DNA of 33,101 bases. Source: Candidatus Avelusimicrobium gallicola. GTDB lineage: Bacteria; Elusimicrobiota; Elusimicrobia; Elusimicrobiales; UBA9959. The stretch lies in assembly GCA_020722185.1 (NCBI GenBank), contig DYLH01000006.1, positions 1 through 33,101 on the forward strand, written 5' to 3'. Position numbers and translations under genes: made by a program. The notes below the pieces were generated by a model. The model did not search any database and was not told the DNA's origin. It saw only the letters and a program-made list of their open reading frames with translations. Below, piece after piece: positions 8,929 through 12,035 of this stretch (positions within the stretch are counted from its first letter, which is position 1; each line of letters opens with the position of its first letter).

Positions 8929-9489
8929 ATGCTAAAGTATGCGTTTTTATTGATTGTATTTCTTTTTCCTCTTTATTGTCTTTCTCAAGATAAATCTTTT
9001 CATCGGCCAGATCCACAGGGCATAGTAGATTTTCTTTCAGGAAAAATAAATCTTTCCACTGAGCAAAAGGGAAAGATTAAAAAAGCTATTGAAAAAAAAG
9101 CGGCTGAATTTGATAAAGTAAATGCCAAATATTTAAAAAAAAATGAAGAGATAGCCGCCATAAAAAAGGAAATACTGCCTCTTGAATCAAAAATGGTTGA
9201 AATATACAATTCATTGCCGGAAACTGTAATAGCTTTCCTCGACGATGCTCAAAAGGCAAAATTCGATGAATTGAGAAAGCCAAAGAAAAAACCAGAACCC
9301 CCGGCAGTGGATAAAAACAATGACAAAAGTGAAAATAAAATTTCAGCTAAAAAGAAAATAAAAAAAATAAAAAGACCGCCCACTTCTCTAACTAAACCTG
9401 TCACAGAATCCATTGCAGAAAATAAAGAGGCAAATGCCTCCACCCCTGATAAAGTTAAAGAACAGGAATTGGATATTTTCTATCCATGA
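8929..9489 (+). CDS. Secreted Spy/CpxP-like helical protein with Lys/Pro-rich tail
   Basis: ATG 8929 gives signal peptide MLKYAFLLIVFLFPLYCLSQ; LSTEQKGKIKKAIEKKAAEFDKV resembles the LTxxQ motif; low-complexity C-terminus. Overlaps next gene (ATGATGA). Confidence 0.5.
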   Translation: MLKYAFLLIVFLFPLYCLSQDKSFHRPDPQGIVDFLSGKINLSTEQKGKIKKAIEKKAAEFDKVNAKYLKKNEEIAAIKKEILPLESKMVEIYNSLPETVIAFLDDAQKAKFDELRKPKKKPEPPAVDKNNDKSENKISAKKKIKKIKRPPTSLTKPVTESIAENKEANASTPDKVKEQELDIFYP

Positions 9490-10253
9490 TGAAAATAAGA
9501 TTGGCTGAGACAGTTTTTGATTTACATATTGAAGATAAAAAATTTTTAAAAAAGTGCCTCGACAGATATGGTGGCTTTCTAAGCGAGGATGCCGCAGATA
9601 TTCATATAAATGTTTTGCTTAATGAATTTGATTCCCTTCCGGGCGAGCCTGAAGTCAAAGTGAATAAAATTTTATCTATAAAAAGGAGCGACTTCTCTTT
9701 TTATATAAGAAATAAAAAAGGTGTTCTTAATATACGCCCCTCAGTATATTCGCTTGACTCTTTTTTGAGAGTATTTACATCCTGTATTTTTATGGAAAAA
9801 CAAATAATTCTTTTGCATGCCTGCGCCGCTTTTAAAAATGGAAAATGCTTTCTCTTCCCCGGAATTTCAGGCACGGGGAAAAGCACAATATCGAGAATTC
9901 TTCAAAAATCAAATTTTGATATTCTTTCAGATGAACTTGTTTTTGTTAAAATCATAAATAACAATGTGGAGGTTTTTTCATCTCCGTTTTGGGGTGAGAT
10001 GAAGGGCAAAGGGAAATACCTAAAAGCTAAGTTAAGCAAGATTTACTTCTTGAAAAAATCACCTTTATTTAAGAGAGAGCCATGCTCTAAATCTCAATCA
10101 GTTTCTTTGCTACTTAAAACTGTAATGAATTTTGTGGAACAAAAAAAAAGGAAAGCTTCTTTGCTTGATTTGATTGCTAAATTATGTTTCTCTTCTAAAA
10201 GCGAATTTCTTTTTTTCAATAAAAGGGACAATTCTTTTGCTAAATTACTATAA
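9486..10253 (+). CDS. HPr kinase-like (HprK-related) protein
   Basis: LLHACAAFKNGKCFLFPGISGTGKSTISRIL (Walker A) then DILSDELVFV; architecture of HprK-like proteins found in RiPP clusters. Confidence 0.75.
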   Translation: MMKIRLAETVFDLHIEDKKFLKKCLDRYGGFLSEDAADIHINVLLNEFDSLPGEPEVKVNKILSIKRSDFSFYIRNKKGVLNIRPSVYSLDSFLRVFTSCIFMEKQIILLHACAAFKNGKCFLFPGISGTGKSTISRILQKSNFDILSDELVFVKIINNNVEVFSSPFWGEMKGKGKYLKAKLSKIYFLKKSPLFKREPCSKSQSVSLLLKTVMNFVEQKKRKASLLDLIAKLCFSSKSEFLFFNKRDNSFAKLL

Positions 10254-10260
10254 TTTGAAT

Positions 10261-10515
10261 ATGAGATTTAAAAAATCGGAAAATATAATTCACAGAAAGA
10301 TAGGCGAGGAGTATTTTTTGATAGATTCTTCAAGAGATGAACTCCATGCTTTTAATGAAACAGGCAATTTAATATGGGAACTTTTTATGAAAGGATTAAA
10401 TAAAACTCAAATAGCAGATAGGCTTTCTAAAATATATGAGATAAATGATAGAGAAGCAATAAAAGATATTGAGGAATTCATTATAGAACTTAAAAATAAA
10501 GGGATAGTAGAATGA
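10261..10515 (+). CDS. PqqD family RiPP recognition element protein
   Basis: MRFKKSENIIHRKIGEEYFLIDSSRDELHAFNETGNLIWELFMKGLNKTQIADRLSKIYEINDREAIKDIEEFIIELKNKGIVE; classic PqqD pattern. ATG 10261 preferred over tracked 10174. Confidence 0.85.
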   Translation: MRFKKSENIIHRKIGEEYFLIDSSRDELHAFNETGNLIWELFMKGLNKTQIADRLSKIYEINDREAIKDIEEFIIELKNKGIVE

Positions 10516-10646
10516 AAAAGAAAAAATATGAAAAGCCAGTTGTAAAAACAGAAAAAATTTTTGAAAAAGCAGCCCTTGCCTGCGGAAAATGCCTAACAGG
10601 TCCCACGAATCAGCTCGCATGCAGAATGTTGAGGAAAAGATCTTGA
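10512..10646 (+). CDS. Candidate RiPP precursor peptide (44 aa), not in ORF track
   Basis: MKKKKYEKPVVKTEKIFEKAALACGKCLTGPTNQLACRMLRKRS*; 4-bp ATGA overlap with the pqqD-like stop, GGGA 8 nt upstream, Lys/Glu-rich leader then Cys core, between PqqD and peptidase/rSAM genes. Confidence 0.82.
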   Translation: MKKKKYEKPVVKTEKIFEKAALACGKCLTGPTNQLACRMLRKRS

Positions 10647-10981
10647 TAAAAGCTGTAAAACTTTATGGATCCAGTATGTTCCCATTTTACAAAAGTGGGG
10701 AGACAATTTTGTGTAGTACTTGCTTTGACAAGAAAAAACTTAAAATAGGGGATTGCGTCATATACGATATGAATGGCGGACTTTATCTTCACCGAATAGA
10801 AAAAATACAAAAAGAAGGAATAGTTTTTTCCAATGATGATGATTTGCCCGCTCATTTCGTGAAGTGGGAGCAGGTGAAGGCTGTGCCGGTGAAAAAAAAT
10901 ATTTTTTCTGATTTTTTTGAAAAATTTTTCTCAGTATTACTTAAAAAAATGAGAAAAATAAAGGCCTTTCTCCAAATTTGA
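10619..10981 (+). CDS. S24/S26 family (SipW/ER-type signal-peptidase-like) peptidase
   Basis: LYGSSMFPFYKSGETI (Ser motif SMxP), LKIGDCVIYDMNGGLYLHRI (GD...HR as in Ser/His signal peptidases). ATG 10619 gives a homology-like N-terminus; the track start is 10589. Confidence 0.72.
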   Translation: MQNVEEKILIKAVKLYGSSMFPFYKSGETILCSTCFDKKKLKIGDCVIYDMNGGLYLHRIEKIQKEGIVFSNDDDLPAHFVKWEQVKAVPVKKNIFSDFFEKFFSVLLKKMRKIKAFLQI

Positions 10982-10985
10982 TTTT

Positions 10986-12035
10986 ATGTCAGCAAAATTT
11001 AGTGATGACTTGATGGGCAGATTAAACGAAATTTCTATTGTTAAAAAAATACCTTTGACAGCGACTTTTGAATTGACATATAGATGCCCTCTCTCTTGCG
11101 CGCACTGCTATTTGCCAGAGACTTCAAAACGAAGGCCTATAAAAAAAGAATTGACTACAGAGCAAATTGAAAAGATATTGTGTCAATTGTCAGAAATTGG
11201 AGTTTTCAGTGTGGTATTAACCGGTGGGGAGCCCCTTTTAAGAAAAGATATATTTCATTTCTGTAAATATGCCAAATTGAAGGGTATTGAGCCTATTCTT
11301 TATAGCACACTGCTTTTGGCTAATGAGGAAATACTTAAAAAACTATATTCAAGCGGTTTGCGCAAAATAGAAGTGAGTTTATACGGCAATAAAAAAATAC
11401 ATGAAAGCGTAAGCAAAATGAAGGGCTCATTTCCCATAACTTTAAAAAATATATTATTGGCTAAAAAAATTGGATTCAAAGTAAAAATAAAAACTCCATT
11501 GATGTCTATAAACTCAAATTATATTTCAAAACTTAGAAAATTCTCCATTAAAAATGGCTTTGCCTTTTCTCTAGATACTATGCTCACTCCTGCAAATGAT
11601 GGGAAAATGGCGCCTGAAGAGTTGATTGTTTCAAAAGGAGAACTTAAAAAAGTCTTTTTAGAACTGATAGCAAAAGGCGATGTTAAGATAAATAAAACTT
11701 TAAGTCAAAATTCTAATGAGGAATTCCCTATATGTTCAGCCGGTTTTAACACTTTGGGCATAAATCCCTATGGAGAGCTTTTGCCCTGTATTCAATTCCC
11801 ATGGTCATTTGGGAATTTGAAAAAGCACTCACTAAAAAAATTGTGGACTGGTGAAAGAGCGGAAGATTTCAGAAAAAAGATCTTGAAAAATCCGGATAAA
11901 TGTAGGGGATGTAAGGTGTCAGATTATTGCTCATTTTGTCCTGGAATTTCATATATCACAGAGAAAAAGATACAGCCTTACAAAGAGGCATGTTTACACG
12001 CATCTATAATGGCCAAAGCTTACAGCAAATCATAA
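10986..12035 (+). CDS. Radical SAM/SPASM domain peptide-maturase-like protein
   Basis: CPLSCAHCYL (CxxxCxxC), TGGEPLLRKD, C-terminal SPASM-like Cys set CSAG...GELLPCIQFP...CRGCKVSDYCSFCPG...C. Confidence 0.9.
   Translation: MSAKFSDDLMGRLNEISIVKKIPLTATFELTYRCPLSCAHCYLPETSKRRPIKKELTTEQIEKILCQLSEIGVFSVVLTGGEPLLRKDIFHFCKYAKLKGIEPILYSTLLLANEEILKKLYSSGLRKIEVSLYGNKKIHESVSKMKGSFPITLKNILLAKKIGFKVKIKTPLMSINSNYISKLRKFSIKNGFAFSLDTMLTPANDGKMAPEELIVSKGELKKVFLELIAKGDVKINKTLSQNSNEEFPICSAGFNTLGINPYGELLPCIQFPWSFGNLKKHSLKKLWTGERAEDFRKKILKNPDKCRGCKVSDYCSFCPGISYITEKKIQPYKEACLHASIMAKAYSKS

Follow-up and report, generated by a model that had tools for sequence, protein, structure and literature searches.

A Radical SAM, HprK-like Kinase and S26-type Peptidase Cassette Predicted to Mature a Highly Conserved Short Peptide in Elusimicrobiota and Armatimonadota

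The window analysed here is a stretch of 33,101 nucleotides from Candidatus Avelusimicrobium gallicola, an uncultured member of the Elusimicrobiota (contig DYLH01000006.1; the genome is 1.6 Mb and 92% complete). It carries a compact operon at 9489-12035 which codes for an HprK-like kinase, a PqqD-type recognition element (RRE), a 44-residue precursor, an S26B-type Ser/His peptidase and a radical S-adenosylmethionine (SAM) enzyme with a SPASM domain. We consider it likely that this cassette yields one conserved ribosomally synthesized and post-translationally modified peptide (RiPP) through the four proteins that accompany the precursor. As is generally required of a RiPP, a short conserved precursor is linked here to modifying enzymes, and purifying selection acts on this precursor. 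Three chemistries (radical SAM modification, peptide phosphorylation and leader removal of the signal-peptidase type) would meet on a single substrate of 44 residues. A near-identical peptide and its enzymes in two phyla, which have few cultured members and little natural-product biochemistry, look like the source of an undescribed and functionally important product rather than of a one-off antibiotic.

Organization of the cassette

All six same-strand open reading frames (ORFs) that an earlier note on this DNA had placed at 8929-12035 are present (Table 1). Its start/stop overlaps were found at 9486 (ATGATG, 9486-9489) and at 10512 (ATGA, 10512-10515), as were the terminator upstream and the convergent gene downstream. 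A third overlap, absent from that note, is formed between the TTG at 10643, the best start of the S26 ORF, and the precursor stop codon at 10644-10646. In a genus-mate (L056) a GTG start of the S26 ORF overlaps the precursor stop likewise. Gene content, motifs and folds support the note's proposal of a radical SAM RiPP system that has a dedicated Ser/His protease and possible tailoring by a kinase.

Table 1. Coordinates of the cassette and its boundary features in the window
Feature	Position	Strand	Remarks
Intrinsic terminator of the upstream gene	8758..8788	+	Hairpin with 12-pair stem, T-rich tail
Exported, weakly Spy/LTXXQ-like protein, 186 aa, accessory	8929..9489 (alternative GTG start 8911)	+	
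HprK/PEPCK-fold peptide kinase (predicted), 254 aa	9489..10253	+	His110, GxSGxGKS/T Walker A, SDE, PFWGE
PqqD-fold discrete RRE, 84 aa	10261..10515	+	Asn32, Asp69 spacing as in LppB N33/D70
Precursor peptide MKKKKYEKPVVKTEKIFEKAALACGKCLTGPTNQLACRMLRKRS, 44 aa	10512..10646	+	
Predicted leader, residues 1-19	10512..10568	+	YxKPx[VIML] motif, FEK before cleavage; by homology to LPP and lasso leaders (PMC13381572, PMC10368454)
Predicted core, residues 20-44	10569..10643	+	Cys24, Cys27, Cys37, C-terminal Ser44; putative cleavage site
S26B-type (Ser/His) soluble leader peptidase, predicted	10643..10981	+	TTG start; alternative ATG 10589 or 10619
Radical SAM/SPASM enzyme, 349 aa	10986..12035	+	CxxxCxxC and seven SPASM cysteines
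2-oxoacid:ferredoxin oxidoreductase subunit, boundary gene outside the cassette	12100..13092	-	Convergent

Conservation of the precursor peptide

The precursor profile was run on two phyla, so that its true range may be wider, and found matches in 55 of 341 Elusimicrobiota genomes (26 of 100 genera) and in 11 of 291 Armatimonadota genomes. The data are metagenome-assembled genomes (MAGs), with one genome per species. One of the 55, a weak match in G100 (E 2.6e-4), is probably spurious because no cassette is present at that locus (L175).

The 22 precursors of the window's family are 66-84% identical to the window copy and have 17 invariant columns. Our wider alignment of 27 precursors shows that Y6, P9, E18, L22, C24, K26, C27, P31 and S44 are invariant and C37 is nearly so. 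The pattern that emerges consists of a leader motif Y..P.[VIML], which takes the form YxKPx[VIML] in the window, a pre-cleavage motif [F/I/L]E[T/Q/K/S] and the core ALACGKC..GP..AC......S. The C-terminal Ser was observed in all 45 precursors gathered first (44 from Elusimicrobiota and one from Armatimonadota) and in 12 of 13 from further Armatimonadota loci. Position 3 of the core is Leu in 27/27 aligned precursors if cleavage follows FE[TQK]. The window core contains one Ser (Ser44) and two Thr with no acidic residue.

Identity to the window copy was observed to be 43-82% for the precursor, 27-47% for the radical SAM enzyme and 19-51% for the S26 peptidase, so conservation is higher in the peptide than in the enzymes. 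Between the genus-mates L055 and L056, the single same-genus pair from which the estimate was made, the precursor differs at 63% of its synonymous sites and at 4% of its nonsynonymous ones (pS 0.63, pN 0.04); L177, which was read out of frame, is left aside here.

Further precursor-like ORFs were noticed in Armatimonadota. Solitary precursors at L152, L194, L195 and L205, up to three per genome (G400), adjoin exported beta-propeller proteins of the PQQ_2/BamB type. A distant precursor-like ORF at L267 (7317-7565, minus strand; genome G587), KKPYEKPHIAHIQKIETMAAACDSI...FPFS, is Ser-terminated and adjoins PqqD and a related radical SAM gene.

Gene order and co-occurrence

The neighbourhood comparison suggested by the earlier note found these genes together in dozens of genomes, far beyond chance. 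The note would have been refuted if the peptidase, PqqD and radical SAM genes were not associated in other genomes or had no conserved small peptide between them; in fact they are associated there, and such a peptide accompanies them. All five core genes are found together in 16 of 18 divergent loci. The usual order in the window's family is kinase, PqqD, precursor, S26 and radical SAM, preceded by Spy-like, PilV-, PilW- and PilX-like genes and followed by an Rrf2 regulator and a giant fn3 protein. In this family the Spy-like homologue is the first gene of a prepilin-like operon that precedes the kinase gene. The window differs in that no pilin-like genes separate its Spy-like gene from the kinase, and the PilV-like partner of this genome sits on another contig. 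In other classes the order is kinase, PqqD, radical SAM, precursor and S26, flanked by an HD-domain protein and a giant exported protein; the HD-domain protein and the N-terminal domain of the giant are homologous across most loci. Two neighbour-protein clusters (c12 and c13) are antisense artefacts. In one genome (G239) the kinase-PqqD-radical SAM set is located elsewhere in the genome.

The cassette genes are scattered in Armatimonadota. S26, PqqD and precursor are together in eight genomes and S26, kinase and PqqD in three others, and the radical SAM gene lies apart from the other genes in 7/7 genomes examined. Nevertheless, precursor, kinase and radical SAM gene co-occur even where they are unlinked. 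With a strong radical SAM match defined as E<=1e-100, a threshold picked after the scores were seen, both genes are present in 51 Elusimicrobiota genomes, the precursor only in 4, the radical SAM gene only in 3 and neither in 283 (p 4e-52). The corresponding numbers in Armatimonadota are 10, 1, 1 and 279 (p 1e-16). These p-values are only indicative, as related genomes are not independent. A strong kinase match was found in 11/11 precursor-bearing Armatimonadota versus 3/67 sampled precursor-less ones, and in two of these three (G561 and G563) the kinase adjoins a related radical SAM gene.

The two phyla fall on opposite sides of one branch in the radical SAM tree, which agrees with taxonomy; this points to largely vertical inheritance of the gene. 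A search of viral contigs with the radical SAM enzyme as query found no relative, and a viral origin was rejected on this ground. Within the same order, 24 sampled relatives with small genomes (1.3-1.7 Mb; family f2, G037-G060) have no PqqD or S26 match, which suggests that both genes were lost there. We also noticed a second cassette, with the order radical SAM, PqqD, a gene of unknown type and a longer HprK-like protein, at L058, L079 and L083-L086, in several of the same genomes.

Identity of the cassette proteins

The hidden Markov model check which the earlier note had recommended gave Pfam matches to PqqD (5e-12), Radical_SAM (1.5e-19) and SPASM (6.7e-14). The S24/S26 match of the peptidase is slightly below the Pfam cut-off and that of the kinase is weak, but folds and motifs support both assignments. 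The label Spy-like is a weak point of the original observation: the first gene codes for an exported accessory protein, but its LTXXQ match (E 0.011) lies below the cut-off, and beyond the window's family the gene does not belong to the conserved cassette.

The nearest NCBIfam model of the kinase is HprK-related kinase A. Its AlphaFold2 model, computed from alignments built here, is confident, with a predicted local distance difference test score (pLDDT) of 94, and its Foldseek matches point to the PEPCK/HprK fold. The H, GKS/T and SDE motifs are retained in the family and correspond to residues required in lasso peptide kinases (PMC10368454).

Lasso-type PqqD chaperones are the nearest NCBIfam models of the PqqD protein, and the closest solved relatives of its sequence profile are the lasso RREs TbiB1 and TfuB1. 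Asn32 is found in 38 of 44 family members and Asp69 in all 44 (84-aa numbering of the window). Their spacing of 37 equals that of N33 and D70, which fix the leader Pro and Tyr in LppB of the linear polyphosphorylated peptides (LPP), a Bacillota family described in 2026 with LppA/K/B/S/N/D of Paenibacillus alginolyticus (PMC13381572).

The peptidase is nearest to the archaeal-type signal peptidase I in NCBIfam, and its sequence profile matches SEC11A/C and SPase I. Its AlphaFold2 model is fair (pLDDT 84.5), and its Foldseek matches are LexA, UmuD and signal peptidase, with E-values just over 1e-3 and a probability of about 1. No N-terminal transmembrane segment was found in this peptidase, whose sequence begins near the catalytic Ser, and it is therefore not of the membrane-anchored secretory type. 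The nucleophile, tested at the SMxP motif, is Ser in 36 of 45 sequences, and the His of the LHR motif and Asp83 (full-ORF numbering) are found in 44 and 40 of the 45 respectively. In the other nine (L159, L160, L162, L165, L167, L168, L169, L170 and L173) Cys replaces the nucleophile Ser and the His is kept; judging by the alignment, this is a Ser-to-Cys nucleophile switch inside one orthologous S26-like family. In four loci (L157, L158, L163 and L171) the S26 ORF is fused in frame, via a signal-peptide-like helix, to an exported giant, which is of the Ig/fn3 type in three and a propeller-like exported protein in L171.

The cluster motifs of the radical SAM enzyme are complete. Its NCBIfam matches are below every cut-off and spread over NirJ2, AhbD, PqqE and others. 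The closest solved relatives of its sequence profile are SkfB, PqqE and entry 5wgg ('Radical SAM domain protein'), which we take to be CteB.

Proposed biosynthetic route

The reactions, their order and the cleavage site proposed here build on the gene content, gene order, co-occurrence, catalytic and substrate motifs, folds and purifying selection observed above. The PqqD-like RRE would bind the precursor through the leader motif YxKPx[V/I/L/M], because the RREs of lasso peptides (PMC10368454) and of LPPs (PMC13381572) bind a leader motif of this YxxP type, Y..P.[VIML], and the Asn/Asp spacing is that of LppB.

The SPASM enzyme would modify the core, with some of the conserved Cys most likely engaged in thioether (or other radical) cross-links. 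The three conserved core Cys make a thioether possible, and this is the most likely among several possible radical SAM reactions, as the closest solved relatives SkfB and CteB are thioether makers and the core is rich in Cys. It is less likely, though worth keeping in mind, that the Cys stay free and bind a metal or cluster, with the SPASM enzyme carrying out another modification (epimerisation, a C-C link or decarboxylation) to give a metallophore or redox peptide. The nearly invariant CGKC..C resembles metal- or redox-binding motifs and the scattered NCBIfam matches of the enzyme would agree with this alternative, but no conserved metal-uptake genes were found around the cassette.

The HprK-like kinase would phosphorylate the conserved C-terminal Ser44. 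The lasso HprK-like kinases described before BsfK phosphorylate the C-terminal Ser of their precursor (PMC10368454), and kinase and precursor co-occur unlinked in Armatimonadota. Both points speak against the rather unlikely alternative that the Ser is kept for a different purpose (it might serve in recognition, or in attachment to an exported partner) and that the kinase targets another residue or protein. This alternative would fit the position of the cassette beside giant exported proteins and the fusion of the S26 ORF to them in the four loci above, and the phosphosite could indeed differ because the characterised relatives LppK and BsfK act on core Ser3, which is Leu here.

With the RRE as its guide, the soluble S26B Ser/His peptidase would cut the leader after [F/I/L]E[T/Q/K]. 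Our first choice in the window is FEK19/A20, because the SipW-like Ser/His/Asp peptidase of LPPs cuts after FET with the help of the RRE (PMC13381572) and the FE motif and the catalytic residues are conserved here. The second choice is ALA23/C24. The computed monoisotopic masses of the unmodified candidate products are 2661.381 for AALACGKCLTGPTNQLACRMLRKRS and 2335.186 for CGKCLTGPTNQLACRMLRKRS. A lipoprotein reading of ALAC was rejected, since there is no hydrophobic signal region and Ala rather than Leu is found at -3.

Several observations weigh against this route. The pre-cleavage motif of the window is FEK and not FET, and ALA/C is compatible with signal-peptidase rules too. The site used by LppK and BsfK is not the C-terminus; the precursor of L206 (Armatimonadota) ends in QY; and L059 has a cassette without an adjacent kinase in which the C-terminal Ser is kept (its genome was not searched for a kinase). 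Lastly, precursor and radical SAM gene are unpaired in the 4+3 Elusimicrobiota and 1+1 Armatimonadota genomes counted above, of which contig ends and MAG gaps explain some but not provably all.

Biological role

Most RiPP cores vary fast. Conservation of the core above that of the enzymes is expected of RiPP-derived cofactors such as PQQ and mycofactocin, and the core described here, nearly constant across two phyla and more so than its own enzymes, follows this cofactor-like pattern. Because the core is nearly constant and the radical SAM gene tracks host taxonomy, the peptide probably serves the producer itself, as a signal, cofactor or cell-surface component, rather than acting as a variable toxin. 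A bacteriocin-type RiPP for competition, as many radical SAM RiPPs are, is very unlikely, even with a small core whose C-terminus is basic in the window's family: the near-constant core and the apparently vertical descent argue against it, as does the lack of a conserved exporter or immunity gene. Neither was found among the conserved neighbours of the cassette, in line with the earlier note, which had seen no transporter.

The recurrent neighbours are exported proteins, namely giant Ig/fn3 proteins in Elusimicrobiota at large and, within the window's family, the products of prepilin-like genes. This neighbourhood hints at a cell-surface role, which we regard as a lead and not a result. Tentatively, and short of calling it probable, the cassette may represent an undescribed RiPP class in which a cross-linked peptide ending in phosphoserine acts as a conserved, vertically inherited and housekeeping-like factor (a signal, cofactor or building block) of a cell-surface apparatus in both phyla.

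Other features of the window

Two divergent clostripain-family (C11) peptidase genes lie 5' of the cassette at 5896-7341 (minus strand) and 7441-8721 (plus strand), and the same pairing was observed in the genus-mates L055 and L056. A match to the 2dG-II purine riboswitch aptamer was found at 19468-19539 on the plus strand (RF03165, 62.2 bits, gathering threshold 60). The ORF just 3' of it (19565-20383) is without a Pfam match.

Comparison with known systems

The earlier note had pointed to HprK-like proteins in some lasso-peptide and SynChlorMet-type (Scm) cassettes. The HprK-like, PqqD and radical SAM logic is indeed shared with Scm and with HprK-related kinase families, but gene order and precursor are different and the matches are far below the NCBIfam cut-offs (ScmC 23 of 125 bits, ScmE 69 of 400). 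SynChlorMet, like any other NCBIfam equivalog, was therefore rejected, and the nearest described system is LPP (PMC13381572). No RiPP system combining radical SAM, HprK and S26 proteins was found for Elusimicrobiota or Armatimonadota in the open-licence literature, which may miss papers.

The cassette has in common with LPP a discrete RRE, an HprK-like kinase and a leader peptidase resembling the SipW/archaeal-type Ser-His signal peptidases, and the leaders agree in part, in YxxPx[V/L/I] and in FE(T) ahead of the cleavage site. Against the LPP consensus YxxPxVLxHQxIxFETxxS (PMC13381572), YxxPx[VIML] and [FIL]E[TQKS] are conserved, whereas the Tyr stands two residues nearer to the cleavage motif and the HQ and core Ser3 are absent; the C-terminal Ser is conserved instead. 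This shared trio and leader logic would allow a plain LPP cluster with the radical SAM enzyme as an accessory tailoring gene, but we find this improbable. The radical SAM enzyme is a core component, which co-occurs with the precursor even when unlinked; the LPP-type nucleoside triphosphate transferase and the MsbA-like exporter were not found among the conserved neighbours of the cassette; and the core is nearly constant and apparently inherited vertically in Elusimicrobiota and Armatimonadota, whereas LPPs are reported as restricted to Bacillota (PMC13381572). Since it lacks the LPP phosphosite, exporter and transferase and has a core that does not vary, the system is not classed as LPP. From the sequences we infer that it works like LPP processing with a radical SAM step added and stands apart from LPP, and the use of S26B leader peptidases would thereby extend beyond Bacillota.

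With the phosphorylated lasso peptides of the paeninodin type (ThcoK/PadeK) and Bsf, the cassette shares a B1-type RRE, a YxxPx[L/V/I] leader and an HprK-like kinase, which in the earlier lasso cases phosphorylates a C-terminal Ser. It differs from them in having an S26 peptidase and a radical SAM enzyme in place of a macrolactam cyclase and a B2 peptidase. A macrolactam cyclase (Asn synthetase-like) and a B2 peptidase were both missing from the window cassette and its conserved neighbours, and no Asp or Glu was found at core positions 7-9 in the alignment; a lasso peptide was rejected for want of the cyclase and the acidic ring residue. As with the sactipeptide and ranthipeptide maturases SkfB and CteB, a radical SAM/SPASM enzyme and an RRE are predicted to serve a Cys-containing core, but here the RRE is discrete rather than fused and a kinase and an S26 peptidase accompany it.

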